Shown here one piece after another: positions 5,333 to 63,920 of a stretch of DNA of 64,000 bases (positions within the stretch are counted from its first letter, which is position 1; every line of letters begins with the position of its first letter). The stretch comes from Polytrichum commune (taxonomy: Eukaryota > Streptophyta > Polytrichopsida > Polytrichales > Polytrichaceae), in the NCBI GenBank assembly GCA_950295325.1, contig OX485809.1, positions 6,818,001 to 6,882,000 of the forward strand, written 5' to 3'. The notes below the pieces were generated by a model. That model saw only the letters and a list, made by a program, of their open reading frames with translations. It made no database searches and was not told the origin of the DNA. The translations under genes were made by a program, and so were the position numbers.

Positions 5333-5370
<38 letters not shown>

Positions 5371-5394: not shown

Positions 5395-7792
5395 TCTCGT
5401 GCTCGACAATCCATAGCCAAACGTGGGGCTCCCTCATGGCAGGAGATTTGTACTCCATGAACTTGGCCATGAATGGGTTGTAGAATGGCAGGTCCTTTGT
5501 CCCGCGGCTCGACGCACCCGGGATGCTCCTGAAATCGATCAGGGCAAATGGGCATCCCCGTCGGTCCTCCCTAACATCCGCCCTGGTGAAGCTACCATCC
5601 CACTTAGAGAATGTGGTCCTCTCCAGGCCGGTGGTGACAGTGCAAAACCTCGCCACTCCTTCGAATGTTGCTGTCCTCTTCCTCTCCAATTTTTTTTTAT
5701 AAAAGCCCACCTCCTGGGCATCCGTCTCGGACTTCTTAGTCCGTTTGTTGCCCTTCAGTTTCAAAGATGCGGCGTGCTCCCTGACCAGACTTCGCATTGA
5801 GGGGCCTCTAATATTAAAGGCTTGCTTGAACACCTTCCAGTGATTCCACTTCACGTCGCTGTCGACGTCGAAGATTTGGTATTGAGGTGCCAGTGCGCTC
5901 AATTCCCTCATTGCTGCTGTCTTCAGCTTTCGATGCTCGCACCACTCCTTGATGGAGTACGTCCCGGGCTTGTGCTTGGGTCTCTTCAAAAATATTTTTG
6001 GATAGGGAAGTTTTCTTCCCTCTGTTTTCATTAGAGCGTTCACGGCGCATCACTTCAACTCCAATTCTGTCAGCCCTTGGAGGGGTCTGAAGAACTCCCT
6101 GAGCAGCGGGGGGCACTCGAAGTTCTCAACGGCATTGTACTTCTCCTCCGTGTCGGGGTTGGTTAAATCTCCCGACGTGTGGGAGTCAAAAAACTGGGTC
6201 CATAAATCCCAGGTGTCTGTTGTACAACATATGAGCCTGAGCTCACCTTTCAACTCCAGCACCGACTTGGTTGAAGTAGACTTCATGTCGATGGAGGAGA
6301 ATTTGTCCACCATAGCGTCGCAGAACGCCTGCATATTAAAATGGATGTTAGTCAAGAGTAAAATACGAACGCACGTTCGTAAAATGCAAACAAGAAAGGA
6401 AATATTGAGCTGATGTTTACGAACGCACGTTCGTAAAATGCAAACAAGAAAGGAAATATTGAGATGATGTTTACGAACGCACGTTCGTAAACTTACCTTC
6501 CACTGTGGAGAAAGTTTCTTGGCGTTCTCCCTCTCCTTAGGGGGGCTACCGTGTGCCACCCAGACGTCTCTTGCAGCAACAATATTCGCAGCCCAGGACG
6601 CCTCAAAAGCTTTCGTCTTGTTTCCGCTATTCAAATACGTTGATATTTTGCGGAGCTTCTCCCAGTCGTCTGACCACACCAGAAACGACTTCCAATAGCG
6701 CAAGTCGCCCTTCAGCTCGTGCTGGAAGGTGTCGTCATTCAGAACGATCTTAGCAGCCTCCAAGCTGTGCTGTCCGTCGATGATCCAGAAATCTCCGTTG
6801 AGGATTCGTGGCCAATCCCTCTCCGTGGGACGGGTAGTGAAGCCCTTTGGCATCACACAAACTGTTTGCCTGTCCCACTTGACGTTGTTGTAGAGGTTAT
6901 TCAACTGCCACTTCACACCCCCGGTCTCCCGTGACCTCACTACCCACTTGTTTGGAGATTTTTCACATTTGAAGCAGTCGACGTTGAATGTGAAAAATCG
7001 ACCCATTGGCCAGCAGTCCTTCGAGTAACTGTTAAAATCTCGAAGGATGCGCGTGGCCTTCGCACCGTCCGGTACCTCTCCTTTCTGCAAAGGAGCCGGC
7101 ATGACTGGCGGGGAACTGACCTCTGCGCCCTCAGTTACGCCAGACTTCTCCATGTCGTCCCTCGTTCTCTTCGAAGGAGTGGAATGTCTGCTCGTACCTT
7201 CGGTCAATTTGCTCGCAGTGGGAACAGGCCGCGGAGCACTTCTGGATCCGCCTGCACCGGATTGCGTTGGTTTCTTGGGACTCTTCTTCTTCTTGTTGGC
7301 CTCCAACACAGCACTGTTGGTCTTGGAGATGTTCAAGCACAAAGCGGTCAATTTCCTTGCTGTCCAATGTTGACTTAGGCTATATCTTGTGAAGAGTTTT
7401 GGCAGGTCGAAACGCTTTCCCTCCTCTTTAACATGCATCTGCGCGTAGTTGTGGGAGAAGGTGTATGCCAAGTAGTCCAGCAACACGTTGACGTGGTCAT
7501 TGTTGTACTTCATGTTGAGGATTACGTAATTTCCCTGTGCCTCCACGGAATCTATCTCCCATGTTGCCATCTGCACCCACTGCTCTGGTTCATCGTCGTT
7601 GGTATTGAGCTGGTAGACGAAGCGGAGGACGAATGTTCCATCCTCTAACATCTCTGGAAGCGCCGTCCACTCTTTCATGAAGTCCTCCTGTGGGACATAA
7701 TTGTCATTCCCATTGTCGTCTGTCACTAACTCTGGGACACTCTCCAACTTCTATCCGAACATCTCTATCGCGCTTCTGTTAGGGATGGCCAT
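5395..7792 (-). pseudogene. ParB/DndB-like (DGQHS-motif) element protein, copy A, broken
   Basis: Reads leftward from ATG 7792-7790, just after a TTTGCAG acceptor. Exon 1 is 7792-6497 (432 codons), the intron is 6496-6329 (GTAAGT...TGCAG) and exon 2 starts at 6328. The frame aligns codon by codon with copy B, including WIIDGQHSLEAAKIVLNDD, FLVWSDDWEKLRKISTYLNS and the AFCDAMVDKFSSIDMKSTST segment after the intron. Two in-frame stops are visible: TAG at 7753-7751 (codon 14) and TGA at 6052-6050 where B has AGG; a CGA-to-TGA deamination would explain the latter. Homology ends at about 5395, so the C-terminal part is lost. The intron itself lacks stops in this frame, so a naive reading runs straight through it. 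Translation starting downstream of codon 14 is possible, but the second stop and the truncation argue for a dead copy. Confidence 0.75.
6364..6489. repeat. Three 18-bp palindromes in the ParB-like gene intron of copy A
   Basis: Exact TACGAACG-CA-CGTTCGTA at 6364-6381, 6418-6435 and 6472-6489. The sites are exactly 54 bases apart because the palindrome plus its spacer (AAATGCAAACAAGAAAGGAA and following) has been tandemly duplicated. The intron of copy B carries two sites at the same place. Confidence 0.95.
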
Positions 7793-7825
7793 CTGCAAAA
7801 CAACATAGGTAGTCAGGATCGTATT

Positions 7826-8393
7826 TACGAGCGAGCGTTCGTATTTAGCAGACAGAGTTCTACAATTTTCAAATATTTTGAACAATAGTTGTTGAGATAT
7901 TTACGAATGTACGTTCGTAAATATGTTCTGTTTGAGAGGCTGTTCTTTTGGCTTTAGATGTTTGCGTGTTTTAAATACCAATGTGTTTATATTATTTTGT
8001 TCTGTTGTGACTTATACTAATTTATATCTTCAATTTGTTCAACATGTGTTTACGAACGCACGTTCGTAAATCTTTTGACGGGCACAAGGCAGTCATTTAC
8101 GAACGCTCGTTCGTATAATGAGGTATGGGCAGGGATTATGTGCTTACGAACGTGCGTTCGTAAATACTCAGACTATTATGTATTCCTTGTTTACGAACGT
8201 GCGTTCGTAAAATTTAGGGGTTTAGGGGTTTAGGGGTGGGTGTTTACGAACGCGCGTTCGTAAACACATGAAAAGAGGATGGGTTGCGTGTTTACGAACG
8301 TGCGTTCGTAAACATATGGACTGGGAGGGGTCACAACAGCTCTGGTTTGCAGGTTGTGTTCACATTTACGAACGCTCGTTCGTAAATGTGAAC
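7826..8393. repeat. Cluster of nine 18-bp palindromes upstream of the ParB-like gene, copy A
   Basis: Sites at 7826 (one mismatch), 7902 (one mismatch), 8051, 8098, 8145, 8192, 8245, 8293 and 8367. The core is TACGAACG-NN-CGTTCGTA with variable central bases (AG, TA, CA, CT, TG, TG, CG, TG, CT). Four consecutive starts (8051, 8098, 8145, 8192) are 47 bases apart although the spacers are not alike. The last site extends to a 36-bp perfect dyad at 8358-8393. A short run of telomere-like TTTAGGGG units lies at about 8216-8237. Confidence 0.95.
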
Positions 8394-9240
8394 TTCTTGA
8401 GAGCGTTCTGTCCGTACATGTACTTATACGTATATGGATATGTATACGTATACACTTCAGCTCTGAAGAATGCTTGCGTTCGTGCCTGCAACACTGGATC
8501 AGAACCAGGATACTCAAACCAAATCAGTGCAGAATTCATAAAGCATACACAACATGCCAGATCTCATGCTAAAGAAGTTGACAATACAAACAAAACCCAT
8601 GGAATTCAACAATGCAGAAATTCAGAATGTTTGGGAAGCGAGTTTAGAAGGATTCCTTCACTCACATTGCAATGTGCTTGACCTTGTTTCTTCTTGCTGA
8701 AAATTTTGGAACACTCCTTGTATGCAATTGAATGAGACCTAAACCCTAGCAACTACTCATGTGCACTGAAATTGCAATCTTGCAACCATCAAGCTTCCTT
8801 CTTCCAAGCTTGCAACTATCAAGCTCACAAAAACAACCACTAAAACACAGCTTGCAACTCTGAAGCCTACAAACTTCAAGCTGTCACCGAGCAAGCTGTC
8901 TTCTCCGAACTTGCAACTATGAAGCTCACAAAAACAACAAAAAAAAGAAAGCTTGCAACATGCACAAGCTCTCTACTCCTGATGCGCACAACTCTGAAGC
9001 TCTCTAATCAGATTCGTTCCAAACTGAAGAGAAATATGCGACTCCTAAGATGCGAAAAATTAAAACACATAAACTAAAGCATTCTAAATTTCGCCAGAGC
9101 TTCGCTCCACTCTACTTCGCTCCTCCTCTCTCTGCTGGGAATGAGAATGAGGAGGAGGGGCGCGGGGAGGTAGCCGGCACCGCTAGGGTTTCCCTGCGGC
9201 TGCCATGTGGCATCCCTCCACTGGACCGCGCTTAACATGG
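8394..9240. promoter_or_regulatory. Probable 5' leader/promoter region of the ParB-like gene, copy A
   Basis: No gene is seen. It contains a degenerate GCTTGCAACT/AAGCTCACAAAAACAAC repeat at about 8770-9000, matching in position the AAAGCTTGAGAG repeat of copy B, then a GC-rich block at about 9100-9230 that is clearly conserved with B (59980-60120). The block includes GGGGAGGTAGCCGGC and a telo-box-like CTAGGGTTT, a motif common near plant transcription starts. By position and conservation it is a candidate transcription start region reading toward the ParB-like gene; this is inference. Confidence 0.4.
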
Positions 9241-9414
9241 ATGGGATGGGAAGGGATGAGCATGGGAGATGGGAAGGGATGAGGAGAGGGGGATGGGTGG
9301 GGATGGGGAGGGGAGATGGGTGGGGATGGGAGGGTGTGAGGGGGATGGGGGGAGGGGACATGGGTGGGGATGGGATGGGATGGGTAGATATGGGTAGATG
9401 AAGGGGGGTAGGGG
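9235..9414. repeat. G-rich GGGATGGG-type microsatellite
   Basis: Nearly pure GGGATGGG/GGGGATGG repeats for about 170 bases. Copy B has the complementary C-rich tract (CATCCCC type) at about 59864-59975, so the tract belongs to the element and is not a local accident. The G runs on one strand are capable of forming G-quadruplexes. Confidence 0.85.
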
Positions 9415-10660
9415 CAATGGTGGTTTTTCACAAGGTCCCTAACATGTCTAGGGACATGTTCATTAAAAAAAATCATTTCCAGTGGACGGGTTCTTAGAAA
9501 ATGAACCGGTTTTTGGACATTTCAAATTTATTTTGGACGGGTTCTAAAAATAATGTTTTTATAATTTTTGTCTCAAAAACATAAATGGTATAAATATCAT
9601 TATGTCATATATGACATGTGAATATAAGCATAATGCAATCAAAGCACTAATACCCAATCAAAATATCAAATTGAAGTGCATGATTCACCTGCATACATTA
9701 ATTCATCAACCACAAAATTTAGAACCTTTTTAACATAATGTCAAAGATTATAATTGAAGGTACACTTAGCAATTGAATAAGAATCATTATATATGAATAT
9801 GATCAAAAAATTTAAAATAAATACCTACTTACCCTTCAAAGAAGTGGATGAATTCTCCTATCCTTCATGTTTCTCCAAACAAGCATCACTGCATTCCAAT
9901 TTATGTTTTCAACTGGAATATTTGCACATGAAATGCGCATCAAAGCTTCTAAAGTTTCTAACTTCAAACTAGTACGTAGATGATTTTTGATTAGGTTTTG
10001 TTTAGGAAAACCCCTCTCACATATTGCAGTGCATGACAAAAAAGGTAGGTTGAATCTCCTCGACCGCGAAGCCTACCAGTTCTTGTTCCAAAAAAAAAAA
10101 TCAAATCCTTCACCCAAAACCTCATAATCCCTCATGCCCAAAAGATATAGAAAGAATGTGTGTAAGAGATACCTAACTAACTCATATTTGTTAATGGGAA
10201 GAGCTTCAATACCTGCTCGATGGGAAGAGCTTCAAAACTCAAATGGAAAAAATTGGGGGGGGGGGCAATGTCGTGGAGGGAATGCTGGTGGTGGCAGCTG
10301 AAATTAGCAAAAAGACATAGTATTGATGGCATTGAAGCAAGATCCTATTGTTTCCAAGTGCAACCAATCACATGCCAACATCTTTCGGTTTATCTTTATT
10401 AATTGGTTTTTCTCTTTAACCTTTTCATGGACGGGTTGGTTTAGAAATTCCCTGTTTTGGGACGGGTTGTTTTTTCTTTAACCTTTCCATGGACGGGTTG
10501 GTTTAGAAATTACCTGTTTTGGGACGGGTTGTTTTTTCTTTAACCTTTCCATGGACGGGTTGGTTTAGAAATAATTACCGGTTTTGGGACGGGTTGCAAT
10601 TTTTTTTGCCTTTCAATTCAAGGTTTTTGGACGTGGACGGGCAAAACCTTTGTGAAAAAT
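9415..10660 (-). mobile_element. hAT-type DNA transposon relic nested in copy A
   Basis: The ends are inverted: TGGTTTTTCACAAGG near 9421 and CCTTTGTGAAAAATCA near 10640. Between them, on the minus strand at about 10039-9836, lies a C-terminal transposase fragment reading ICERGFPKQNLIKNHLRTSL, then LETLEALMRISC and NWNAVMLVWRN, the conserved dimerisation region of hAT transposases (CERGFS...IK...LR..L..E.L.ALMRI). A ~65-bp unit with GGACGGGTTGGTTTAGAAAT is repeated three times at 10400-10600. No clean 8-bp target duplication is visible. This block is absent from copy B, so the insertion came after the copies separated. Confidence 0.65.
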
Positions 10661-12094
10661 CAGCCTTCGGTGGGGGGGTTTAAAAAAGAACAACTATACA
10701 AAATGTACAAGTAACACTTGTACAACTAAAACCCTAAACCATGAACATTTATAGAATTAACACTAATTGTTTTTAAAAATAGGACCCTAAGGTTTAATAC
10801 AAAAAAAGCATAAACGATAGTATATATAATTCAACTTAAGTATTAATTGAATGAAACATTCTACAATATGTAACACTTATAACGACTTGAATGTATAAGT
10901 AATGAGTTCACATTAAATTCATGATTTGTAAACCCTATATGTAATGGATGCGTCTATCACATTAACTTCAATAACTTAGTAAACATGCTTGAATTTTGTT
11001 TATCGTCATTCATTTGAGGACATTTTAGATTGAACTTGTGCATTGCAGCCACGTGGTCGAATACACTAAACCCTAAACCCTAAACACTATCACCAACCCT
11101 AAACTCTACATCCCTGCATCTTTGTATCTTACATGGTAGTCTTGTATGTGGCCATGTTGTGATCTATGGGCATGTCAAAATGATCTACCGATGTTCGATG
11201 GATTGGAAATTGCTTTATTCGATTCATATCAATCGTAATAATTGAGAATCATGCCGATTGTCATTTGGAGATTCTAAATTAATTGAATTGAGACAAAAAT
11301 TTGGTTTATGTGATTAATAAAACTTGAAACTTAAGAGTTTTGATGAAATAATAACTTAATAGTTATTATACAATTTGTTCACACAATCCATACTTAATAT
11401 TATTATAACTTGCATGTCTTAGGCCCTTAATTCATGCGTCAATGATTTTCTGTTCATGGGTCCATGAGTCCCACTCCCACCTTATTGAGTGATATAAATT
11501 TAGTTTCTATATTTAGTTTCTTAATTTTATATATCAAGGTTAAGAAGAGTTATGGATGGTATTTCCATTGAATTGATTCAAGTTCCATTAATTCTCGGTA
11601 TGTTCCCTTCCTTTGGGGTCTATTTCTCATTTCATGTGCAAATATTTTCATGTAACTATGTTTCATAATTTCGTTCCCTTCAATGCCTTTATGTCTAATA
11701 TAAGGTGTATCCGATTTGGAAACTATACGTATGGAAGTTTTAGTTTGTAATTACAAGTCCATATTTGAAATTTAAAGTGCGTTCTTAAATAGTCTCAAAA
11801 TCAACTAAATGACTCCAATTACCAAATATACCATTATTGTATTAGATACGAATTGTTAATTAACTTGGACTTCACACCTTGGTTGCAAATCATTTAATCT
11901 TCTATGTCAAAATTCATAATATTTAAATATCATGAAACATATATATGTATATATATATATATATATATATACATTTGGTGGTTCAGACCTTGGTTACATC
12001 TAAGGTGTGCGACCGATTTACATTTTTTTCCAATATAATGTGCGTGCATGCAATACATGTTGCATACAAAATGCTATTTATATAATTGGTCATG
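10661..12094. other. AT-rich internal spacer of copy A
   Basis: No gene is seen. Telomere-like CTAAACCCTAAACCCTAAAC lies at about 11066-11087; the surrounding 11060-11260 (GGTAGTCTTGTATGTGGCCA, CAAAATGATCTACCGATG) matches copy B near 58850-59000, where a TTTAGGG run is also present. An (AT)n tract at about 11940-11972 corresponds to the much longer (ATATGT)n tract of B near 57955-58080. Confidence 0.6.
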
Positions 12095-12354
12095 GCGGGA
12101 ATGGCATATTGGTAGGTCTAGGTAGGGGGCGGGAATCCGCTTTTTAAAGAGCATCCAAGAGATTTTGAACCACCGGGGGGAGGTACTTAAAGCTTTTCCC
12201 CCCACGGGAGAGCTCTTTTCTGCGGCTGACGGGAGGTGTGCGCTCTAGAGAGTCGTCGGAGCGCGCTCAAGCCACCCTCCTGTTCGCCAACCGTATTCCT
12301 CACAGGTACAGGACATAGCATATCCCGCATATACCGCCGCAAATACCGGATACT
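12095..12354 (+). promoter_or_regulatory. Conserved hairpin-bearing block, candidate promoter/leader of the DUF7869-like gene, copy A
   Basis: This ~260-bp GC-rich block is one of the best conserved non-coding parts between A and B (57572-57850). It has a TTTTTAAA box at about 12140-12147, then an inverted repeat at 12175-12203 (GGGGGG..GTACTTAAAGC..CCCCCC), then GAGCTCTTTTCTGCGGC and, just before the first palindrome, ATACCGCCGCAAATACCGG. The TTTAAA box followed by a GC-rich leader suggests a core promoter reading to the right, with a long leader over the palindrome cluster. The function is inferred. Confidence 0.4.
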
Positions 12355-13651
12355 TACGAACGCGCGTTCGTAAGTATGAGGTCCCATCACTAGCACAGTT
12401 GGATCAGACGGAATGATGTGGGTTTACGAACGTGCGTTCGTAACTACCAAAGTATACATGAGTTGACGTTGTGACATATGTATATCAATCATTTGCAATG
12501 CGAATGGTGGTTCATTTACGAACGTGCGTTCGTAAATGTGGCATCTACATTTTTATGTATGTACAATTATAAATATAATGGTTGTTCATTTACGAACGTG
12601 CGTTCGTAAGTACGCCATCTATGATTTCCTAGTGAATACATTCAGATGGGGGTTGCTGTGGTTTTATGAACGCGCGTTCGTAAGTATGAGGTCCCATCAG
12701 TAGCACAGTTGGATCAAACGCAATGTTGTGGGTTTACGAACGTGCGTTCGTAACTACCAAAGTATACCTGAGTCGACGTTGTGACACATGTATATCAATC
12801 ATTTGCAATGCGAATGGTGATTCATTTACGAACGTGCGTTCGTAAATGTGGCATCTACGTTTTTATGTATGTGCAATTATAAATATAATGGTTGTTCATT
12901 TACGAACGTGCGTTCGTAAGTACGCCATCTATGATTTCCTAGTTTATACATTCAGATGGGGGTTGCTGTGGTTTTACGAACGCGCGTTCGTAAGTATGAG
13001 GTCCCATCAGTAGCACAGTTGGATCGGACGCAATGTTTTGGGTTTACGAACGTGCGTTCGTAACTACCAAAGTATACCAGAGTCGACGTTGTGACACATG
13101 TATATCAATCATTTGCAATGCGAATGGTGGTTCATTTACGAACGTGCGTTCGTAAATGTGGCATCTACGCTTTTATGTATGTGCAATTATAAATATAATG
13201 GTTGTTCATTTACGAACGTGCGTTCGTAAGTACGCCATCTATGATTTCCTGGTGTACACCTGCAGATAGTGATTTTTGTGGTTTTACGAACGTGCGTTCG
13301 TAAACATGCTATCTGTTTTGTCCCGATATACTCTTCGAAATTCGGGATAGTTGTGGTTTACAAATTTTGGTCGTTAATACAACATGCGAGTTCTGTACTG
13401 GTTTCCAGAAAGAACTCCTCGTTTATAAACCTTTATACCCAAACTCATTCATCCTATGCTATACGAACGTACGTTCGTATAAAAAACTTGTATGTTCTGC
13501 TCATGCAGGTCGATGGTCTGTAATTAACGAACGCACTTTCGTAAATTCCATCAGCAATCAATATGATAGCACTTTGAAAGGCTTTCTAAGTTATTGACTT
13601 CCACACATAGGCACATTCACTATTGCAGTCGTATACGAACGGACGTTGGTA
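12355..13651. repeat. Sixteen 18-bp palindromes, twelve in three 310-bp tandem units, copy A
   Basis: Sites start at 12355, 12425, 12517, 12591, 12665, 12735, 12827, 12901, 12975, 13045, 13137, 13211, 13285, 13462, about 13525 and 13634. The first twelve form three units of exactly 310 bases (12355-12664, 12665-12974, 12975-13284), each with four sites at the same internal offsets of 0, 70, 162 and 236. Most match TACGAACG-NN-CGTTCGTA exactly; 12665 has TATGAACG, and the last two are degenerate. The cluster sits directly upstream of the DUF7869-like gene. It may be the leader intron, because TTTTTGTAG precedes the start codon. Confidence 0.95.
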
Positions 13652-13758
13652 TTTAGAACTTGACTGATTTGACATGCTGCGTTGAATGTCGTCCATGTTG
13701 GCTGTCATTCTTTAGTTTACGTTTGGGTCTCCTGGTGCCTCTGGTTTTTGTAGGTGGG

Positions 13759-16700: not shown

Positions 16701-16880
16701 CCGGTTTGGATAAACACGGATACTATACTTTGTGCTTGGAAGCCGCGCAAAGGTTCCAAAACAGAATCAATGACCATCCCCCAAAAACATATAGATTTTG
16801 CCAAGGACAATTTGGCACGTATTGCAGCTGCGGAAAATGACTCGGACAATGGATATGAAGCGGAAGATGGAGATGGGTAA
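13759..16880 (+). pseudogene. DUF7869-like transposase-type protein, copy A, single-base frameshift
   Basis: Two exons, 13759-15234 and 15361-16880, with intron 15235-15360 (GTTTGTAT...TTTTTTATAG). ATG 13759 was chosen because it follows a TTTTTGTAG acceptor and begins MAMHVDGSSLELST, matching B. Exon 2 is exactly as long as in B (1520 bases) and exon 1 is one base shorter (1476 versus 1477). The missing base is in the A-run at about 14426-14430 (CGCGAAAAATTAAG versus CGGGAGAAAATTAAG in B) and shifts the frame right after CCQFFPRE. Downstream, the frame continues intact to TAA (16878-16880) with VQLDNCAKDNKCRYVF and VGHTHDDIDASFGRWS. The sequence is otherwise very close to B, so the copy lost function recently, or the indel is an assembly error. 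Confidence 0.8.
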
Positions 16881-17288
16881 ACATAACATACTAGGTGGGA
16901 GTTAATGGCGAGAGGCATGTGAGCTTAGCAAGCTTGGTTTTTAATAGACTTAGTAGACTTGTCACATTCCATTGTGGCATATGTTTGGGATGTGTCATCC
17001 AACTTTATAAGACCCTTACTTTTGGGATGGGCACCCTAAACTCTAAAATGACAAAAACAATTTGTTTTTAAAAGTCCATTGTTATTTTTTACATGGACTA
17101 CACGTTTTCATTGTAATTGAGACTTTCTATTTTTAGTAATGATTATATTCTGCGCATGCGAATTTATAAATCATCATGTTCTTGATGTTCCCAATATTCT
17201 ATATGCCCACAATATTGGCATCCCAAACTATGGGCATATTTAATTTTGAGACTTTCAAAAGTCTCCGATTAACGAATATAGTGTTACT
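16881..17288. other. 3' flank and right terminus of copy A
   Basis: This tail is homologous to B (52812-53214) up to ACGAATATAGTGTTA at about 17288, where similarity stops. Near the end both copies hold the dyad GAGACTTTCAAAAGTCTC and paired CCCACAATATTGG/CCAAACTATGGGC strings. These are probably the terminal sequences of the element, but the opposite terminus is missing in A and outside the window in B, so inverted ends cannot be checked. Confidence 0.5.
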
Positions 17289-18030: not shown

Positions 18031-18284
18031 CTAACAAATTAATCTAAATCTAATTTTTATCCACCAACTTCTTTTTTATTTAGATAACGAACATTAAACC
18101 AATCACAAGCGGTTTGTTTAATTCACGCAGGTAAATAATAACATATTTTTTAAAAATAAAAATCGATTGAAAAGATTCTACATACATCGCGTAGTAACTT
18201 CTTCTTTGTATCTGCCTATAGATTATTCATGTTTTAACACTAGCTCAATTTGGGATAGCACCATTTAATTTAACGAAACGGATT

Positions 18285-52811: not shown

Positions 52812-53214
52812 AACACTATATTCGTTAATCGGAGACTTTTGAAAGTCTCAAAATAAAATCTGCCCATAGTTTGGGATGCCAATATTGTGGGCATACGGAA
52901 TATTGGGAACATCAAGAACATAACGATTTAAAAAGTTGCACGTAAAGAATATTCTTATTTCTAAAAATAGAGAATGTCAATTAAAATGCAAATGTGAGCT
53001 CCATATGGAAAATAACAATCGAATCTAAAAAAACAAATGGTTTATGTCATTATAGAGTTTGGGGTGCGCATCCCATAAGTAAGGCTCTTATGAATTTGGA
53101 TGGCACATCCCAAACGTATACCACAATGGAGTGTGACAAGTCCATGAAGTCTATTAAAAACCAAGTCTACTAAGCGTCCATGTTTTTCGCCATGAACTCC
53201 CACCTATGTTATGT

Positions 53215-56200
53215 TTACACATCTCCGTCTTCCGCTTCATATCCATTATCGGCGTCATTTTCCACAGCTGCAATACGTGCCAAGTTGTCTTTGGCAAAAT
53301 CTATATGTTTTTGGGGGATGGTCATTGTTTCTGTTTTGGAACCTTTGCGCGGCTTCCAAGCACAAAGTATAGTATCCGTGTTTATCCAAACCGGTGTGTA
53401 CGCTGAGTCCACTGTCCACTTAAAATTCTTTTTGGTGTCCCAACCTAAATAAGTGCGAAGCACGTTCTGGTCTTTAGTACTTGGACGACAATATGCCACC
53501 TCAATCTGACGAAAGTTGGGGCTAGTTCGAACAAAATTGGGTGAAGACAATGCTTTCACCAACCAAATTGGCTTGGGATGTTCCTCATCCCCTGCTCGTA
53601 CAAGGACCAAATAACCTTCATGGCAATCAACACCTACACGAAACGACGGTGCCGGTCGATTGCGGGCAGGGCCAACGTAATGCTCGTCCATTGCGAACTC
53701 TTCACGAACGTCTCCATTGCTAAAAACCATGGTGTCGGACTCGACAACCGTCAAACGACTTTGTGGCCAAAATCCTTGTGTTAAAGTTGTACGGGTGTCA
53801 CCACCAAGTGTCATTAGGGCCGAGCGAATGCGATCCCAATACGCAATCAAAGGTTCATGAGTATCTCTAACACGTCTAGTGATGTCCTCCTCACACAACT
53901 CTTTCCAATATTCAATGAATCCGGATATGCCTTTGATGATTTCCGGCCCATTCCTCATGGGGTCGGGTTTGCAAGGCTTTGGATCCCCATCCGGGAGCAA
54001 ACATTTCCCATTATTGTCTTGACGCCATACAAGTATACCATCATCCGGTCCCCAATTAAGAGATGTGCATAAAAGCTTGAATTGCATGGCTGGGAGACCA
54101 TCATCCCTTATATAGAATCGGAATTGTTGTGCTTTGGTATGCCCCACCAAACGGTCCCCTCCCTTCAACATGTATGACTTGATGAAGGCCTTGAAATCTG
54201 GTACTTCCTCAATCATGTGCGGAATTACTGGCATATGGTCCAAATCCATATACGATTTCATAAGAAGAGGTATGGTTGGAAAATCTTCTTCATGCAACTT
54301 CATGCTCCACCGTCCGAATGATGCATCAATGTCGTCGTGTGTATGTCCCACCATAAAAAACGACACAAACACCTCCTTGAAGATTCCTTTCGCCACGAGC
54401 AATGACCAAAAACAAAATACGTATCGACATTTGTTGTCTTTCACGCAATTATCAAGTTGAACGTGAAGAGTTGGAGGCAATGGTTTTGCACAAATAGGTA
54501 CTCCCGGTGGTTCTGGCAATGACGACATACAAACCTCCTTCCCCGCAAGCACTGCTTCGTAAAGGGGTGTCGTTCCACAACCATCAAAAAGTGCACGTGA
54601 TGAATGTAACGGTGGCTTCTCCAGATCGCGCAAAAGTTTTGCAAATGAACCCACTGTGTGGTTAGCATCGCCAGGGTAAAAATCCAACCCATAATGGGCA
54701 TACTTTACGTCTCCATGGCTGTGGGCAATCATCCCTGCGAAAAAAAACAAACGATGCTTGAACAACAACAATAACAACGACAACTCCAAACGGAGGTATG
54801 AAATTGGACATTTGGCAAACACACCCAGTAAAATTTGAGAGAATTTGAATACATATTTGTGATTCAATACAAACCTGTGACAGATACGGGCAACTTGAAG
54901 AGACCATCCGTGGCCTTAATTTTGCGTGCATAACAAGGGCATGCGGTCTTGGCGTGGTCCATTTTATCATGGATGATTGTTAGAACCTCTGTAGGCCTCA
55001 TTATGGATAGAGCACGGTTCTTGTAGTAATCTTGACGGTGAGCCTCTTGGTTGTTGACATGTTCAATATATTTTGCTTGGTGTCTAGTGTGGGATTCGGT
55101 GCCTATGGGGTGGGCGTCTCGAAGACCTTTGTATTTTTCACACGTCGTACACCTAGCGAACTTGTCCCCAGGTCTCTTCAAAATGTATTCGGCAAACTGT
55201 TGGTTTTTAATGATACTCAACTTGGACAAAGAAATGGGCCCACATCCCGCTATGCGACCCACTTCATTGATGTCCGTTAATATGTTCTTCCATTTTGTAC
55301 CCGTGGGCAATACCATTTGTACAACTTTCTCCCCTGACGACAATGTCCTCGTCTTGTGGGGCATTGCATCGGCCAATGGGACTATGATGGTGGAGAGTGT
55401 CGCGGAGGCTTGGAGTGTAGCCTCCCTAGGTTTCTTTGTGCCCGAATTGCCATGAAATCGAGAGCGGCGACCCAACAATGAATATTTTTGAAACCTATAA
55501 AAGTCAGACTTTGACACGGCGTGGATGGTATACCACGCAGTACAACACACTTCCACATTCTCAAGTGTGACCACCTTACGCCCATGGGTGTCAATGTGGA
55601 CATTTCTGTGGACCTCGAGTTTCTTTGCCGATCTCATACGGAAATCCGCAAGCCACATCTCTTGACGTAGGGACTTAATTTTCTCCCGCGGGAAAAATTG
55701 GCAACATTTCCTCTCGCAACAGTCTTTGGCGGACACAAGACGGATAGTTTCGTCTCCCAATATGCGATCCCGTCGACGTTCCTTATCTCCACGAGGCACA
55801 CGGTTAGAATCATATCTGCGTAGGCCTTTGCAAAGACGTATTTTGGTCAACAAAGCTAATTGCGTTTGATTATGGCGGCGCTCATGGTCCAACAAGCTTA
55901 CTCCGTCATAGAGAACCCGACAAAGAGGCCATCGACGCAAGGAAAATCTCCATGTCACCGGGACGTCAAGCGGAAGCAAAGAATTCAGGATGCACACACC
56001 CACATCATCGGGACCAAGGGGGTTGGCATCAACACAATCACGGGGATCAGAGTTTCTACATATGCCATCTGCCACGGGGACACCAACATCGTTGAAAAGA
56101 ACAACATCAAGGCCCACCCATTGCTCCCTACCGAAACCGGCACATAACGGAATGTCATCATTGTCATCCCCGGAACGTATAGATTGTTCGTGCGCTTCAA

Positions 56201-56351
56201 ATGATTCGTGGGAGGATGCATCCACAAACCCACCCATGGCATTTGCCATGCCATGACTACCCGCCGATGGCGAAGATAGTTTACAGTCATCATCGGAAGA
56301 GGAAGCTTTTGTGGACAACTCCAATGAACTATATCCAACGTGCATCGCCAT
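53215..56351 (-). CDS. DUF7869-like, transposase-type protein, copy B, intact (998 aa)
   Basis: Exon 1 is 56351-54875, the intron 54874-54735 (GTTTGTAT...TTTCGCAG) and exon 2 54734-53215; together they encode 998 residues with no stop. ATG 56351 follows a TTTGTTTAG acceptor and begins MAMHVGYSSLELST, as in A. The N-terminal ~200 residues are acidic/serine-rich, then basic. Cys pairs (CCERKCC, residues 211-217) precede a conserved helical region, and a second Cys/His cluster (CTTC 401-404, His 414, 421, 424) looks like a zinc knuckle. Candidate catalytic acids are D465 in IIHDKMDHAKT, D587 in HVQLDNCVKDNKCRY, and D627/D629 in GHTHDDIDASFGRW, giving D-122-D-~40-D, a spacing compatible with an RNase-H-like DDE/D transposase. 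The layout resembles proteins annotated as DUF7869 in plants and animals (name recalled, not checked). The catalytic role is inference. Confidence 0.82.
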
Positions 56352-56494
56352 CCAACCTAAACAAACCACCAATAAAATGACCAACACAACAACCACCGCA
56401 ATGCATACAAAAGTGGATACGAGATATGCCTACATATATGGTTCAAAAATCACAAACAACTCTCGCCACACCGTTGCGGGACCTCACATATGAA

Positions 56495-57571
56495 GACGAA
56501 CGTGCGTTCGACAACAGCTCGATGACATGCAAATCCTACACGGGACTCAGACGTCCCTGCACAACGGAACCCCATTCCGATATATATTACCCGTGAAGGG
56601 CTTTGGGTCGAGTCGCCAATAAAACATTGGAAGGGTTGTCCACCACCAAGGGACAACACAAGCACATATATTCACGAACGCGCGGACGAAAATATCAACC
56701 CAATATACAATAAAATCTAAATGGGACATATTATAAGAGCACCTAAAATATACTTGCCACTTTATCCACATGCAGTAAGCATCATATTTGATGGGCGAGT
56801 GTTTACGAACGATCGTTCGTAAGTTCCAGCCGAAACTTAGGGGCGGATGCAAACGACCGATCATCTGTATGTCACAGCCGCGACAGTGTTTGGAAAAAAT
56901 GATTGGACACGTCCGAATAGAGATATCTATAGCCACCTTACAGGGAAACATGTTATCCAATAACCAGTGGAAAATGACAGTCGACATCTATCACTAAATC
57001 ATGATTGCATAGATACGAACGAGCGTTCGTATCTATCATAAACACGGTATAGTCCTCTACACATGCTTGCGTCAACAGGCCTGTTGGTGGATGCGTGGAC
57101 GGTGGACAGGTGGTATTTATGAACGTGCGTTCGTAAAATTCAACTAACATAATTCTCCGCGGATACAAACGGTAGTGAGAAATACGAACGCTCGTTCGTA
57201 TTTAACTTGCATATTGTTAACGTGGCCAATGCACTGAAGTGTATAAATTAAGGAATGTTTTTTGGATTCTTGAAAAATAATCCCAGGTGATATTTACGAA
57301 CGCACGTTCGTAAATATCCCATCACCAGATGTTCCGTTGGAGAAAACGGTTACACGGGAACTCATGCGCGTCTGGGTCTTGAAGGTAGATATACGAACGT
57401 ACGTTCATATATCATCGACACAATTTTCGTGCCTAGTTCTGTCTATAAGGAACTCAATGTCGAGTACGGTTGTGATCAACTTACGAACGCACGTTCGTAA
57501 ACAACTCATATCATATTGATGTACCTATTGTACATGTGCTACCAACTCACGTTTACGAACGTGCGTTCGTA
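56495..57571. repeat. Cluster of ten 18-bp palindromes upstream of the DUF7869-like gene, copy B
   Basis: Sites start at 56495 (degenerate), 56673 (degenerate), 56804, 57014, 57118 (TATGAACG variant), 57183, 57295, 57392 (one mismatch), 57482 and 57554. The site at 57014 extends to a 28-bp dyad (ATAGATACGAACG and its inverse). Spacing is irregular, and B lacks the 310-bp tandem units of A, so the palindromes persist although the spacers do not. Confidence 0.93.
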
Positions 57572-57850
57572 AACGTCCGGTATTTGCGGCGGTATATACG
57601 GGTATGTGCAGTCTGTAGTGGACCTGGGTGGTGTAGGGTTGGCGCACAAGAAAATGGTTTGAGCGCGTTCCAATCAGGTCTGTGGAGCGCACACTTGGAT
57701 GTGCCGCAGAAAAGAGCTCTTCTGTGGGGGGAAAGAGCTTTAAGTACCTTCCCCCCGATGGTTCAAAATCCCTTGGATGCTATTTAAAAAGCGGATTCCC
57801 GCCGCCTACTTTGACCTAACAATATGCCATTCCATCCATGCGCAATATAT
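57572..57850 (-). promoter_or_regulatory. Conserved hairpin-bearing block, candidate promoter/leader, copy B
   Basis: Counterpart of 12095-12354. It has CCGGTATTTGCGGCGGTATA next to the palindrome cluster, GAGCTCTTCTGTGGGGGGAA, an inverted repeat at 57726-57756 (six G, loop with TTTAAGTACC, six C), and CTATTTAAAAAGCGG at about 57779-57794, a TATA-like box for leftward transcription toward the DUF7869-like gene. The stem arms are kept while loop bases differ from A. Confidence 0.4.
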
Positions 57851-59146
57851 AAATAGCATTATGTATGGAACATGTCTTGCGTGCACGCAACATATTGTAA
57901 ATCTATAAATCCGTCGCACACCTTAGTTGTTACCAAGGTCGCACGAAAATATGTCTATATGTCTATATGTATATATATATATATGTATATATATATGTGT
58001 ATATATGTGTATATATATGTATATATATATATATATATATTTTTACTATTTTATATATGGGTTATTATATTATATATATATAGGTTGATGGGTTAACATT
58101 GAGTATTAAATTATTTGCGACTAAGGTGTGAAGTCCAAGTGAATTGATGAAGGTCTAAGTGATATATATATTCACACACACAATGAGGTAAGAGTGGCTA
58201 AGAACATATTGTGGAATCCCCTAAAATTGTAGGTATCATATGATTCACATAAAAAAAATGCTTGTAATATGGTCACCAAGTGCATGAATACCAATAAAAA
58301 GTCGCTTAATCCATAATGGCTTGTGCTAGGTAGATTGAGAATATTTGGAACTGGAGGCTCACCAAACATCGGCCCATATTAATATGAATCATTGTTGCAA
58401 TTCATCATTGGTGAAAATTAAAGTTTAATGCACTAGTATTCGATCGTTAGTTCAAGTTGACACCTAATTAAATGACTTGACGTCCTATTGGAAATTCACT
58501 TTAGGTCCACCATGGTGTGGAAATGGATAACGAATTTGGAATGGTGCATACAATAGTATGCACTTACAATTATATATTTGTATTATTTGCAACAAGAAGT
58601 ATGTGCATGACCATAGCTTAACTGTTGATTTAAGTTGAAGTCTTATACCATTCATGTTATAATAAGACTAAGTGTGTATTGTGTGATCAAATTGCACTCA
58701 AAACTATTAAGGTGAAAGGGCTAGCATTTCAAAATTCACTCTTCACCCCCTAAACCAATGTTTTATATCAAAATGACAATTATTGGCATGAGTCTAGATT
58801 ATTATAGTTGCTATGACCCAAATAAAGCAATTTCCAATCGAACCAACATTGGTAGACCATTTTGACATGATGCGCATAGACCACAACATGGCCATATATA
58901 AGAAAGGTTGGTAAGATAAAAAGATGTAGGGTTTAGGGTTTAGGGTTTGGGGTTAGGGTATAGAGTTTGTGAAAGAGTTGTCTATGTGGTTTGCGGGCTT
59001 AGGGTTTAGATCGTTACTTCAATGCATTATATACACAAACAATATCGACTCCTAAATAATCCATATCGCACTAACTTAATTTATGGGAAGCTCATACTAT
59101 CAATTGATACTACTAGCAAAACATGCGACCACATGGCTAAAATACA
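57851..59146. other. AT-rich internal spacer of copy B
   Basis: No gene is seen. An (AT)n/(ATATGT)n microsatellite covers about 57955-58080, giving a false Tyr/Ile open frame. Telomere-like TAGGGTTTAGGGTTTAGGGT is at about 58927-58947, and the adjoining GACCATTTTGACATGATGCG matches A near 11180. Confidence 0.6.
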
Positions 59147-59494
59147 CTACACTAAATATGATATTTAGTGTTTGATTGTATAATATAGTGTTGTTACGCT
59201 ATCATGGTCAACACTAAATTTCAATTCTTTGATAATTAGTGTTGGACATATTAAATGGGCCACCACATTTCCTACTACCATGTCCTTTATGCTTTTATCA
59301 TTGTTAATTGTTTTTTTCATATTAATTTCCTTACACAAAATTTGTGCATGCGACATCCACATATTACCATTATAGTTGACATTAAGTGTTTGAGTTCGCA
59401 ATGAATAGTAGTTACCTTCATAGGGTTAGTGATATTTAGTGTACTATGCGTTTGTATTTAGAGTATCTAACACTAAATATCATATTAAGGGTGG
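59147..59494. mobile_element. MITE of the CTACACTAA family, copy 2, nested in element B
   Basis: The left end CTACACTAAATATGATATTT is inverted at the right end (AACACTAAATATCATATTAA). The interior matches the copy at 32223-32552. It is absent from copy A, so it inserted after the elements diverged or was lost in A. Confidence 0.7.
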
Positions 59495-60949
59495 TTCAAG
59501 CTAACACCTCATGAAATTAATGACATCGTATTGAAAATTGAATTTTCATCCACCTCTTGTGGAGAATCAGATAGCCCCTCTCCACAATTTAAATTGAGTC
59601 ATTTATATATGTAATATTTATTTGAGGAACCATTGAAGAACTTTAAAGATGTCTCGTTCATGAAAACGACATTTGCATCTTGGGGGTGGATTCTTCATCG
59701 AAAACCTACTAAATGACATGAATTGTTAAATACAAATTATCTGAACATACTTTTCTAAAATATGTTTACAAGGAATCCATATGTCGAGGTACTAAGGGGA
59801 TACGGAAAGTCAAATTTATGTCCCTAAACTAAGCTCCTCCCATCTCCTATTTCATTTTTCCTGAACCCTCATCCCTCCATGTCCCCATGGTATCCCCTCA
59901 TCCCCATCCCCTCCCCCTCCCCTTCTCCCATCCCATCCTCATCCCATCCCCTCCCCATCCCCCTCCCCCATCCCAGCCCTCGCCAGTGGCCACTAGCCAC
60001 GTGGCCGCTGCTTGGAAACCCTAGCGGCGCCGGCTACCTCCCCGTGCCCCTCTCTCTCCTCCTCATTTGTCATTTGGAGCAGAGGAGGAGAGGAGCTCTT
60101 AGGTGCGGCGAAGCCCTTGCCAATTTTAGAGCCTCATTGTGAATGTTGTTTTGTTGTGTTGTCAGAACCTTGAGAATAGGAAAGCTTGAGAGTAGGAAAG
60201 GTTGAGAGGTTGAGAGTTATAGAAAGCTTGAGAGGTTGAGAGTTATAGAAAGCTTGAGAGGTTGAGAGTTATAGAAAGCTTGAGAGGTTTAGAGTTTTAG
60301 AAAGCTTGAGAGCTTGAGTTTTAGAAAGATTGAGAGGTAGAGAGTTTTAGAAAGCTTGAGAGGTTTAGAGTTTTAGAAAGCTTGAGAGCTTGAGTTTTAG
60401 AAAGCTTGAGTTTTAGAAAGCTTGAGAGGTTGAGAGTTTCAGAAAGGTTGAGAGCTTGAGAGCTTGAGAGCTTCAGAAAGCTTGAGTTTTGTGAAGCTTG
60501 TGAGTTGTGTACATCAGGGTTTGTGTAGGATTTGCATATAAGTTGTGAAGGCTTGAGAGTGTGACAAAGTGAAGGCAGGAGGATTTGTGTGCAACAATTC
60601 AATGCGAGTATAGGTTTCCTTTACAAATCACTCCTTCACAATCTGAAATTGTTGTTTGATGAATTCCTTGTGATTTGTTTTCTGCATTATGAGGTATGTC
60701 ATGTTTTGTATGAAATAACACTTTCCTCTTCATTCTGAACTATCAATCACTGACTCGCAATTTTGTTCTGATTCCATTTTTCACTTGTGTTTCATCAATC
60801 TGATCACGAGTTGCAGGATCATGAACAATGCCAGATTGCAACATTCATACCAACATTTATACGTATATGTACATATATGTATATGTATATGTACGGATAT
60901 ATATGTACATAAATAAATATACCATTTCCTAATCCCAGATGACCACATT
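59495..60949 (+). promoter_or_regulatory. C-rich tract, GC block and repeat leader upstream of the ParB-like gene, copy B
   Basis: A C-rich CATCCCC tract is at about 59864-59975 and a conserved GC block follows at 59980-60120 (AAACCCTAGCGGCGCCGGCT, CCTCCCCGTGCCCCTC). From 60170 to 60490 there is a tandem repeat of AAAGCTTGAGAGGTTGAGAG with a ~30-bp unit, its only open frames being repetitive. The AAACCCTAG telo-box and GC block suggest a transcription start near 60.0 kb with a leader intron ending at 61545. This is inference from position and from conservation with A. Confidence 0.4.
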
Positions 60950-61513
60950 TACGAACGTTCGTTCGTAAATGTGGCGTGAATACATGCCTTACCCCACAAA
61001 CATATACGAACGTGCGTTCGTAAATACGCACCTCACCCTCCATTTTTACGAACGCACGTTCGTATATTCGTCTATACCCTGTACATCAGAAAATCCTCAA
61101 ATCCAATTACACATACAAAAATACGAACGAACGTTCGTAATCACAAACTATAACAATATACCAAACCCTTCATGGTAATTGTCTGCATTTCCAAGTAGCA
61201 TTATTTACGAACGCACGTTCGTAAATAAGAACTAAAGTATTAATTCACCTATTTAGAAGATGCTCATGGAAATTCGAACAACCCTCGTGGAAATTAGATA
61301 ACCCTGGACAACTCGTGGACTTGTTTAGAAACAATACGAACGCACGTTCGTAAACTTGTGTCAAATACACCTTAGCAACCACATTCTTTACGAACGATCG
61401 TTCGTAAATGAAATCAGCGAAGACATCATTACAACTTCTCACGGGTATCCATAGCCAGAGTTCAATGATTAGTGTATATGATTTGCTTTGTCAATTACGA
61501 ACGCTCGTTCGTA
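60950..61513. repeat. Cluster of eight 18-bp palindromes upstream of the ParB-like gene, copy B
   Basis: All eight match TACGAACG-NN-CGTTCGTA exactly, starting at 60950, 61005, 61047, 61122, 61207, 61335, 61389 and 61496, with central dinucleotides TT, TG, CA, AA, CA, CA, AT and CT. Arms are constant while the centre is free. The last site ends 32 bases before the start codon, within what looks like a leader intron (TACTAAAT branch-like site, then TGCTCTGCAG). Confidence 0.96.
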
Positions 61514-61545
61514 AACACAATACTAAATGTTTATGTGCTCTGCAG

Positions 61546-63920
61546 ATGGCCAGACCGAGTAGAAGCGCCATTGAGATGTTCGCAGTGCAGATAGATCAAC
61601 TACCAGAGTCAGTGTCCGACCCCAACGGAAACGATAATTATGTCCCCAAGGAGGACTTCATAGGGGAATGGACGGCACTGCCAGGGAAGACATCAGACGG
61701 TCTTTTCTGTCTTCGCTTCACATACGAGCTGGAAACGACGCCGGACCAGCCAGAGCAATGGGTGCAGATGAAGACTTGGGAAGTAGAATCAATTGAGGCA
61801 CAAGGAGATTATGTGATTCTAGACATGAAAAACAAGAAGGATCACATTAACCTATTGTTAGAGTACAGGAGACATAGTTTCTCCTACATATACGCGGAAA
61901 ATAACGTAGTGGCTGATGCCAAACACTTCCTCAAGGACCTCTTCACGAAGTACGCCCTGAGCTCGTACTGGACAGCAAGGAAGTTGGCCGCGCTCTCCTT
62001 GAATATCTCCAAGTACAATAGCGCGGTCGCGGAAGCCAACAAGAAGAAGAAGAGCCCACGGAAACCATCCGCATCCGGGGCAGGAGGATCGAGAAGTGCA
62101 CCCAAGCCGGTGCCTTCCGCGAGCAGGGTGACGGAGGGTCCCAGCCGTCATTCCACGCCATCGAAGAGGTCCCGGGACGAAATGGAGAGGTCTGGGGTAA
62201 CAGAGGGCGCTGAGGTGAGCTCTCCTCCCGTGATGCCAACCCCTTTAAAGAAGGGTGAGAATCCAGATGCGGTGAAGGCAACGAAGATCCTACGAGATTT
62301 CAATAATTACTCGAAGGATTGCTGGCCCATGGGGCGCCACTTCACGTTCAACGTGGACTGCTTCAAGTGCGAAAAGTCACCCAACAAGTGGGTGGTAAGG
62401 TCTCGCGAGAGCGGTGGGGTGAAGTGGCAGATAAACAACCTCATGAATAACGTCAAGTGGGATAGACAGACAGTCTGCGTCATGCCCAAGGGGCTGACAT
62501 CCCGACCGACAGAGGTGGATTGGCCGCGAATCCAGAATGGAGAATTCTGGATTATAGATGGTCAGCACAGCTTGGAGGCGTCGCAACAGATCCTCAAGGA
62601 CGACAACTTCCAGCACGAGCTGAAGGTTGACCTGCGGTACTGGAAGGCGTTCTTGGTCTGGTCGGACGATTGGGACAAGCTGCGCAAGATTTCAACCTTC
62701 CTGAACTCGGGGAACAAAATCAAGGCGTTCGAGGCTTCGTGGGCGGCTAACATAGTGGCTGCCAGAGACGTCTGGGTGGCACACGGATGCCCACCAAAGG
62801 AAAGGGAGAACGCCAAGAACCAGTCTCCCCAATGGAAGGTGAGTTTACGAACGAACGTTCGTAAAGTGTTAGATTCATGAAAACTTCAATTACATACTCA
62901 ATTTACGAACGTGCGTTCGTATTATGTGCAACACTGACATCTTGTTTTGTGCAGGCATTTTGCGACGCGATGGTAGACAAGTTCTCTTCCATCGATATGA
63001 AGTCCACCACCACCAAGTCAGTGCTTGAGCTGAAGGGTGAGCTCAGACTGATCTGCTGCAACAGGGACACCTGGGACTTGTGGACACAGTTTTTTGATGC
63101 ACACAGCTCGGGCGATTTGGTCAATCCCGACACCGAGGAGAAGTACAGCACGGAAAAAACCGGTGAGGCGCCCCCACTACTGAGGGAGTTCTTTAGACAC
63201 CTCCAGGGATTGACGGAGTCAGAGCTGAAGAGGTGTGCGATTCATGTTCTTGGGAACACCGTGGGAAGAAACCTTCCCTATCCCAAGATCTTTTTGAAGA
63301 GGCCAAAGTACAAGCCCGGCACGTACTCTATCAAGGAGTGGTGTGACCACCGGAAGCTGAAGACTGCTGCCATGAGAGAATTGAGCGTACTCGCACCAGA
63401 GTACAAAATCTTTGAAGTTGACGGCGACATCAACTGGCCGCAATGGCAATTGTTAAAGGTCGACTACAACATCAACGGAGCCTCCATGCGCAGTCTGGTC
63501 AAGGAGCACGCCTCGGTTTTGAAGTTGAAGGGGAACAAAAAGACTAAGAAAACCGACACGGATCCCCACGAGGTAATGTTGTACATACAATTTTTGGAGA
63601 GGAAGAGGAACGCCACATTCGAAGGGGTAGCAAGGTTTTGCGTGATGACCTCCGGCGTGGAGAGGGTCACATTTTCCAAGTGGGACGGCACCATAAGCAG
63701 GGCCGAGGTGAGGGAGGATCGACGGGGTTGCCCTTTTGCCCTGATCGATTTCAGGGGGATCCCGGGTGCATCAAGGCAGGGGGGGAAGGACATTCCCTTC
63801 TACAACCCCTTCATGGCCAAGTTCATGGAGTTCAAATCGCCGGCCATGAGGGAGCCACACGTTTGGCTGTGGATAGTCGAACAGGAGAAGCTGTCGGTCG
63901 TCACAGAGCTGTACGAGTAA
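61546..63920 (+). CDS. ParB/DndB-like (DGQHS-motif) element protein, copy B, with an early stop
   Basis: ATG 61546 follows the acceptor TGCTCTGCAG and begins MARPSRSAIEMFAVQ. Exon 1 is 61546-62838 (431 codons), the intron 62839-62954 and exon 2 62955-63920, giving 752 residues. The N-terminal ~160 residues are unassigned; then come a basic linker with nuclear-signal-like KKKKSPRK (from residue 166) and PSKRSRD (from 205), and the core WPRIQNGEFWIIDGQHSLEA with D338-G-Q-H-S. Then follow LRYWKAFLVWSDDWDKLRKI and FLNSGNK. DGQH(R/S) followed by a helix is the hallmark of DGQHR/DndB proteins of the ParB/sulfiredoxin fold, which bind DNA or nucleotides. The TAA at 63918 is followed by an open, coding-like frame (KIKFEYSIFHSTYVPAKTEG) to the window edge, so the stop looks like a nonsense mutation and the native protein is longer. 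Function in the element is unknown. Confidence 0.7.
62846..62921. repeat. Two 18-bp palindromes in the ParB-like gene intron of copy B
   Basis: TACGAACG-AA-CGTTCGTA at 62846-62863 and TACGAACG-TG-CGTTCGTA at 62904-62921. The first begins seven bases after the 5' splice site (62839), as in copy A, so a palindrome next to the donor is a shared, conserved placement. Confidence 0.95.

Follow-up and report, generated by a model that had tools for sequence, protein, structure and literature searches.

The 64-kb window examined here (C7:6818001-6882000 of the Polytrichum commune genome; by the window we mean this whole stretch of DNA) raises the question of what reads a palindrome, TACGAACG-NN-CGTTCGTA, that recurs in clusters within its two elements, A and B. 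The palindrome-bearing elements are large DNA transposons of ~16 kb with two divergently transcribed genes: gene 1, encoding a DUF7869 protein and putative transposase, and gene 2, encoding a protein that bears an IDGQHS motif. Sister families of this transposon in the same genome carry different palindromes, and both half-sites change symmetrically between related families. This observation was absent from the original prediction, which had been made from the window, and is more telling than the window clusters alone. We give a probability of about one half to the reading that the palindromes are family-specific dimer sites read by the gene 2 protein, with an anti-silencing effect.

Within the window, 39 exact matches to the palindrome were found (23 in A and 16 in B), or 47 with up to three mismatches (28 in A and 19 in B, exact matches included), against 0 exact and 0.06 near-exact sites (≤3 mismatches) expected from dinucleotide shuffles of the window. 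The original prediction of about 48 sites, 39 exact, divided 28 and 20 between the elements, was thus right to within one site. All sites fell within 6364-13651 (28; 23 exact) or 56495-62921 (19; 16 exact). The window scan found no full palindrome in 1-5394 or 17290-52810, as had been claimed for positions 1-5395 and for the DNA between the elements, and the ~35 kb separating A and B held one half-site. In both elements the sites fell into three clusters, one upstream of each gene and a third in the first intron of gene 2, which agrees with the earlier description of clusters 5' of the element genes and in introns:

6364..6489: palindromes in intron 1 of gene 2 of A, 3 exact
7826..8384: palindromes upstream of gene 2 of A, 9, of which 7 exact
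12355..13651: palindromes upstream of gene 1 of A, 16, of which 13 exact
56495..57571: palindromes upstream of gene 1 of B, 9, of which 6 exact
60950..61513: palindromes upstream of gene 2 of B, 8, all exact
62846..62921: palindromes in intron 1 of gene 2 of B, 2 exact, the first beginning 7 bases past the exon end

Local tandem duplication multiplied the palindromes in A. Arrays at 6364-6491 and 12354-13303 (Tandem Repeats Finder) contain 15 of its 23 exact sites, and 12 of the 13 exact sites upstream of gene 1 of A sit in a 310-bp tandem array of 3.1 copies. None of the 16 exact sites of B lies inside a tandem array scoring ≥60. Simple tandem copying, which the original prediction had set aside, is therefore real in A, but it fails as a full account because the spacers of B are unique and the 2-bp spacing is fixed. 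The accompanying statement that arms are constant while centers and spacers vary holds, with conserved arms, changing centers and unique B spacers. Upstream of gene 2 in B there is also an array of a different kind (60196-60486; 26-bp unit, 11.4 copies), rich in AGCTTGAG.

Across the genome (407.8 Mb, 64 contigs), 4,680 exact copies of TACGAACG-NN-CGTTCGTA were counted, compared with 0 for the reversed-pattern control, and when spacers of 0-12 were permitted 4,680 of the 4,682 matches had a spacer of exactly 2 (reversed control, 1). The palindrome is thus confined to the two elements inside the window and not genome-wide, a recurrence in the thousands that the original prediction had not included. 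Its distribution was followed site by site for 100 listed sites, which all come from the first 2.54 Mb of C1; the remaining 4,580 were counted only. Ninety-nine of the 100 lay inside the span of element copies, so that among these sites the motif was not equally common away from the elements, and the last (L008) lay in a probable relic with 76% identity to L005/L006 across 160 bases. One 9.5-kb element bounded by the family termini, L006, accounted for 33 sites. A further 13, 23 and 5 surround listed gene 2 matches and 21 surround a gene 2 match in L060, with sites on the gene 1 side, at distances of ≤5.9 kb from the match, assigned by layout; 3 lie in L061, which has gene 2 exon 3, and 1 in L007, which has gene 2 exon 3 and a phosphatase gene.

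The sister families came from 21 DUF7869 loci, picked for variety from 150 scored of 1,491 candidates and searched for recurrent inverted repeats (10 kb in five cases, and 2.5-kb upstream stretches in 16). Fifteen of the 21 were assigned to a family, each with at least three exact sites, and all of these families have a free dinucleotide between the arms:

F1, half-site TACGAACG: L022, L026
F2, half-site TACGGACG: L011, L012, L027, L028, L029
F3, half-site TTGGGTCG: L010, L024, L025
F4, half-site CACGGGTG: L009, L018, L019, L021
F4b, half-site CACGGGCG: L020, seen locally

One more locus, L023, had only a single F4b-type CACGGGCG site. With spacers of 0-12 permitted, the genome contained 1,383 F2 matches with TACGGACG (reversed control, 4), 10,193 F3 matches with TTGGGTCG (control, 23) and 835 F4 matches with CACGGGTG plus one more outer C (control, 0), and the spacer was 2 in 50 of 50, 99 of 100 and 50 of 50 listed places, respectively. 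The general pattern TACGNACG-NN-CGTNCGTA occurred 6,226 times (control, 44), ~163 of them in forms other than the symmetric ones of F1 and F2. Each of F1 (both A and B), F2, F3 and F4 has a palindrome within intron 1 of gene 2, always the family's own sequence. Loci L013-L017 belong to a distant DUF7869 group. L014-L017 yielded no family palindrome with this architecture; L013 has a satellite-like array at 7552-8291 with the palindrome GGTGAGGCA-NN-TGCCTCACC, and L014 and L015 share frequent 8-mers with that array.

The two elements of the window and their genes, with exons and introns given as inferred gene models, are as follows:

5395..17285, + strand: element A, truncated, homologous to the full copy L001-L003 with no homology past ~5395; its right inverted terminus ends at 17285
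ends at 17285, - strand: right terminus of A, AACACTATATTCGTTAATCGGAGAC
5393..7795, - strand: gene 2 of A, IDGQHS protein; exon 1 ~7795-6497, intron 1 ~6496-6332, truncated exon 2 ~6331-5393
13759..16880, + strand: gene 1 of A, DUF7869 protein and putative transposase; two inferred exons, PF25273 E 3.2e-40, tblastn match to B
52812..64000, - strand: element B, inverted relative to A and running off the window end; its left inverted terminus begins at 52812
52812..52841, + strand: inverted terminus of B, gene 1 side
53215..56351, - strand: gene 1 of B, DUF7869 protein and putative transposase; exon 1 56351 to about 54867, exon 2 to 53215, PF25273 E 3e-38
61543..63920, + strand: gene 2 of B, IDGQHS protein; exon 1 61543-62838, intron 1 62839-62951, exon 2 from 62952

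Under these models all 39 exact window sites lie outside exons. The same placement was seen in a copy on C5 (L001-L003), taken as the full copy at 16,149 bases, 7,454 of them coding by tblastn. Of its 22 sites, those closest to the two termini are ~2.8 kb and ~4.1 kb away, inferred introns 2 and 3 of gene 2 hold 2 and 1, and the one that overlapped the open frame of exon 3 by tblastn is flanked by a GTAAG donor and a CAG acceptor. Both A and B contain telomere-like CCCTAAA / TTTAGGG stretches (11061-11100 and 58927-58969) in their middle part, where there are no sites.

Element ends were compared in the C5 copy and a copy on C4 (L004, L005), whose identity ends at AACACTATATTCGGTATTTGGAGACTTTT on one side and at AACACTATATTCGTTAATCGGAGACTTTT, on the other strand, on the opposite side. 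The terminus pattern occurs at least 293 and 316 times on the two strands, lower bounds given that the pattern requires a non-G base eight places outside. Among 100 listed places, 22 of the 23 terminus pairs spaced 5-21 kb had a 4-bp target duplication; the C4 copy has ACTA, and the C5 copy is without one. The DUF7869 gene thus lies between inverted termini with a target duplication. The terminus core AACACTATATTCG and the 4-bp duplications are common to F1, F2 and F3, where F2 termini are the pairs enclosing F2 sites and F3 termini those at L035:1318 and L034:1500; for F4, no terminus match with ≤2 mismatches was found in L009, L030 or L031. The C4 copy (C4:1470430-1486540) is inserted between stretches with F1 palindromes that resemble L006, so the elements seem nested, and at 24181 in the window AACACAATATTCATTTAAATGAGAG resembles a terminus and is possibly a relic of a related element.

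To ask whether the arms are held in place, the region upstream of gene 1 of B was compared with 19 of 20 other copies (L038 did not match and was dropped), of which 10 are more distant and 9 close; the copies are not independent. In the distant copies, arm CpG positions had changed in 7 of 429 cells, vs. 114 of 936 for other non-coding CpGs, and palindrome centers in 22 of 112. Arm positions outside CpGs had changed in 18 of 504 cells, 17 of them at the two near-misses of B (57118 and 57392), where other copies keep an intact arm. By columns, arm CpGs varied less often than other CpGs (7/51 vs. 34/98, Fisher p 0.007), as did arm non-CpG positions relative to the remainder (3/58 vs. 132/923, p 0.05). 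Selection likely acts on the arms, with gene conversion between copies as the alternative. Outside the arms, CpGs changed about twofold more often than other bases in the distant copies (12.2% vs. 6.4%) and not in the close ones (1.0% vs. 1.2%), which suggests that the elements are methylated.

Taken with the strict 2-bp spacing, the symmetric change between families and the non-coding placement, the conserved arms make it quite probable that a dimer binds the palindrome; these sequence features lend strong support to the dimeric site of the original prediction, and the binding is what we infer from them. The gene 2 product is probably the reader. Its gene is fast-evolving: relative to F1, gene 2 exon 1 shares 44-47% (F2), 37% (F3) and 21% (F4) identity, with the N-terminal part most divergent (37-38, 24 and 19%), and the corresponding values for gene 1 exon 1 are 74, 61 and 40%. 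The palindrome thus appears to track gene 2 better than the transposase, and because the palindrome changes and the termini stay, we favor gene 2 over gene 1 as the reader.

Several observations count against this reading. Gene 1, too, has a divergent part, its N-terminal 66 residues (35-37%), through which it could read the sites in place of gene 2. Between A and B, whose palindrome is the same, gene 2 already differs by 24%, so its divergence alone proves little. Specificity is not absolute, as four of the five F2-type loci contain one or two F1-type sites and L011 has two hybrid sites. Genome-wide, TAYRAAYRNNYRTTYRTA matched 6,059 times (control, 112), which leaves ~1,267 sites with one or more CpGs lost, so that in many copies the palindromes are not protected from decay. 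Nor did the nine close copies show a significant column difference between arms and the rest: arm CpGs had changed in 3 of 518 cells vs. 10 of 982 for other CpGs, and arm non-CpGs in 17 of 586 (the two near-misses of B again) vs. 108 of 9,174. Gene 2 itself had no Pfam or NCBIfam match over the cut-off, profile searches of the PDB returned no credible solved relative, and AlphaFold models of its exons, built on window-only alignments, had a mean predicted local distance difference test score (pLDDT) of 35, too low to show a DNA-binding fold. A ParB-like match of gene 2, to phrog_1033, is outscored by phrog_21482 (function unknown, E 0.0021) and YEATS (E 0.014).

As an observation on their own, the single F1-type sites in F2 elements are at L011:1943, L027:726, L029:723, L011:8747 and L012:1582, three of them in the same sequence context. 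The best PDB match of gene 2, between exon 2 and a cytochrome c555 trimer (E 4.6e-5), was rejected, since its score adds up three repeats that each fall short by themselves.

In the mechanism we favor, the gene 2 product would form a homodimer that docks at its own family's palindromes in promoters, introns and spacers, including those of non-autonomous elements, and would thereby keep own-family elements expressed and mobile, the most likely route being to counter host silencing (DNA methylation) of non-coding element DNA. By analogy, we lean slightly toward anti-silencing over plain transcriptional control as the effect. The analogy is with VANC of the Arabidopsis VANDAL transposons, which was shown by chromatin immunoprecipitation sequencing and gel shift to bind motifs in the non-coding DNA of its element, including introns (PMC5735166). 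Its expression removes methylation family-specifically (PMC5735166, PMC10398659). PMC5735166 also describes motifs upstream of VANA and in introns of VANC21 elements, tandem amplification, motifs that differ between related families, and a transposase more conserved than VANC. The elements studied here resemble that system in having short motif clusters mainly in non-coding DNA, upstream of the transposase gene and inside introns, in the growth of sites by tandem repeats, and in motifs that differ between families alongside a transposase more conserved than the second protein. Counter-silencing is proposed because the non-coding and intron placement, the abundance of sites in an element where gene 2 was not found and the interfamily turnover match VANC in VANDAL21.

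The likeness has limits. VANDAL transposases are MURA-like; the transposase here is a DUF7869 protein and not a MULE (MURA-type) transposase such as VANA. Pfam scans of gene 2 in four families found neither of the VANC domains, DUF1985 and DUF287, and on both counts the element is not a VANDAL. Unlike the VANC21 motifs, which are single and in one orientation, the sites here are inverted repeats with a fixed 2-bp center, and unlike VANDAL the element is ~16 kb long, makes a 4-bp target duplication and carries a C-terminal domain (CTD)-phosphatase-like gene. Anti-silencing has been demonstrated for VANC, and here it would rest on analogy. Among the titles and abstract openings listed from the open-access literature on anti-silencing, no similar system was found, VANC being the sole well-studied case that turned up; an earlier description elsewhere is possible. 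If true, our reading would add a second case of sequence-specific transposon-encoded anti-silencing beside VANC, in another transposon type and with no detected sequence relation. The half-sites TACGAACG, TACGGACG, TTGGGTCG, CACGGGTG and CACGGGCG would then be a natural specificity series in which protein-site co-evolution is directly testable, and could provide orthogonal tools for locus-specific epigenome editing.

Plain autoregulation would dispense with anti-silencing, an element-encoded dimer (from gene 2 or gene 1) using the palindromes as operators or enhancers of the divergent genes. The clusters directly upstream of both genes and the strict dimer geometry fit it; the presence of further sites in intron 1, seen in all four families examined, does not, though intronic enhancers exist. 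The non-autonomous element L006, moreover, has 33 sites and no gene 1 or gene 2 match except a short gene-1 start fragment (~8.4 kb read), though arrays can grow by duplication. On balance, autoregulation alone seems to us possible and rather doubtful.

A role in transposition itself, with the palindromes as cis-required transposase-binding sites read by gene 1, is improbable. CACTA or Ac elements carry subterminal repeats as transposase sites, and both the retention of palindromes in non-autonomous L006 and the divergent N-terminus of gene 1 could be understood in this way. Set against this, the nearest sites in the full copy are kilobases from the termini (at the distances given above) and not subterminal, and the palindromes change among F1, F2 and F3 against conserved termini and a largely conserved gene 1. 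Terminal transposase sites in particular were rejected, their position being wrong and the termini not co-varying with the palindromes.

Host transcription-factor sites captured by a transposon promoter would account for the promoter-proximal placement, but a host origin was rejected as the main reading and is very unlikely, since element copies account for 99 of the 100 listed F1 sites and a probable relic for the other, and since sister families in the same genome have different sequences at equivalent places. Least credible is a structural role in RNA or DNA (a hairpin in introns or leaders, or a cruciform) in place of a protein site: the transcribed motif does fold into an 8-bp hairpin (-8.7 kcal/mol), symmetric interfamily changes preserve its pairing and one of the eight window near-misses (56495) has a paired change at the outermost pair, but the arm sequence itself is fixed within a family beyond what pairing needs, every change in seven of the eight near-misses is unpaired, as is one in the eighth, and at one position few sites (~163 of 6,226) depart from the F1 and F2 forms.

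Returning to the anti-silencing reading, a bolder and distinctly speculative version of it would make these elements a eukaryotic transposon clade with a self/non-self address system evolved independently of VANDAL, in which the diverging ParB-like gene 2 dimer of each family would pair with that family's parS-like palindrome, nucleate at many such sites and spread along the element as an anti-silencing coat, possibly with the aid of the CTD-type phosphatase. If so, several mutually distinct codes would operate in one nucleus (five half-sites were found). The ParB-like nature of gene 2 is a lead only. The match to phrog_1033, a "ParB-like partition protein," over the IVDGQHS stretch was not significant (E 0.02 and 0.14; two of six members). 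Like bacterial ParB/parS, the elements have a palindromic site of similar size and a possible ParB/Srx-type motif; unlike it, they have a free center in a eukaryotic transposon, and no significant homology was found (no Pfam, NCBIfam or PDB match). Searches of viral contigs with gene 1 and gene 2, and of prokaryote genomes with gene 2, gave no relative that tblastn confirmed.

Other transposons offer partial parallels. TnpA of CACTA/EnSpm elements binds repeated short subterminal sites and also counters methylation. The repeated short sites and proposed binding by an element protein are shared with that system, and the letters CACTA lie two bases in from the termini AACACTATATTCG here, where the search pattern required AA. 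The palindromes differ from TnpA sites in lying kilobases from the termini, and the Pfam scan of gene 1 gave DUF7869 only, with no EnSpm-type transposase domain; the element is accordingly not placed in CACTA. For the wider CACTA clade, PMC12730594 gives target duplications of 2-5 bp and CA..TG ends; it also describes fungal transposons carrying TET/JBP enzymes, another anti-methylation strategy. Sola1-1 of Ectocarpus, one of the algal giant transposons, encodes a ParB-like accessory protein, its gene on the strand opposite the transposase, that is proposed to bind and epigenetically modify its own element (PMC12477816). Gene 2 is likewise opposite the transposase strand, with the weak, non-significant ParB-like match at IVDGQHS; unlike Sola1-1, no DNA-methyltransferase domain was found in gene 2, and the passage on Sola1-1 mentions no palindromic sites.

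Among the remaining features of the element genes, gene 1 is called a putative transposase because it is conserved, high in copy number and associated with the termini (77 genomic matches scored of 1,993 candidates). Its exon 2 matches DUF7869 (PF25273) only and exon 1 has no Pfam match; a search of the open-access literature returned no paper on DUF7869, and one on DNA transposons of mosses or bryophytes gave no lead. For gene 2, 97 genomic matches were scored of 1,087 candidates. The A and B versions share 76-77% identity (tblastn), and the A version is probably dead because of in-frame stops; that of B is interrupted at 63918 by an in-frame stop, a point at which copy L001 stays open. A phosphatase domain of the NLI-interacting-factor type (FCP1/SCP-like; PF03031, E 1.3e-15) is encoded downstream of gene 2, by a separate gene or an exon, and recurs in F3 (E 1.1e-13):

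L001:3003-3785 and L035:2821-3525, - strand: FCP1-like phosphatase domain, two families

The RNA polymerase II CTD may, very tentatively, be suggested as the target of this phosphatase.

Elsewhere in the genome, C5 DNA-methylase matches (123 scored of 353 candidates) include three high-copy open frames of up to 1,386 amino acids (L057-L059; C3:11187843, C4:45872068 and C5:26514355). In L058 and L059, which belong to a high-copy mobile element, the methylase match follows an apparent retroviral-type aspartic-protease motif, and the three are possibly a long terminal repeat (LTR) retrotransposon carrying a cytosine methyltransferase, a type of element known from some algae.

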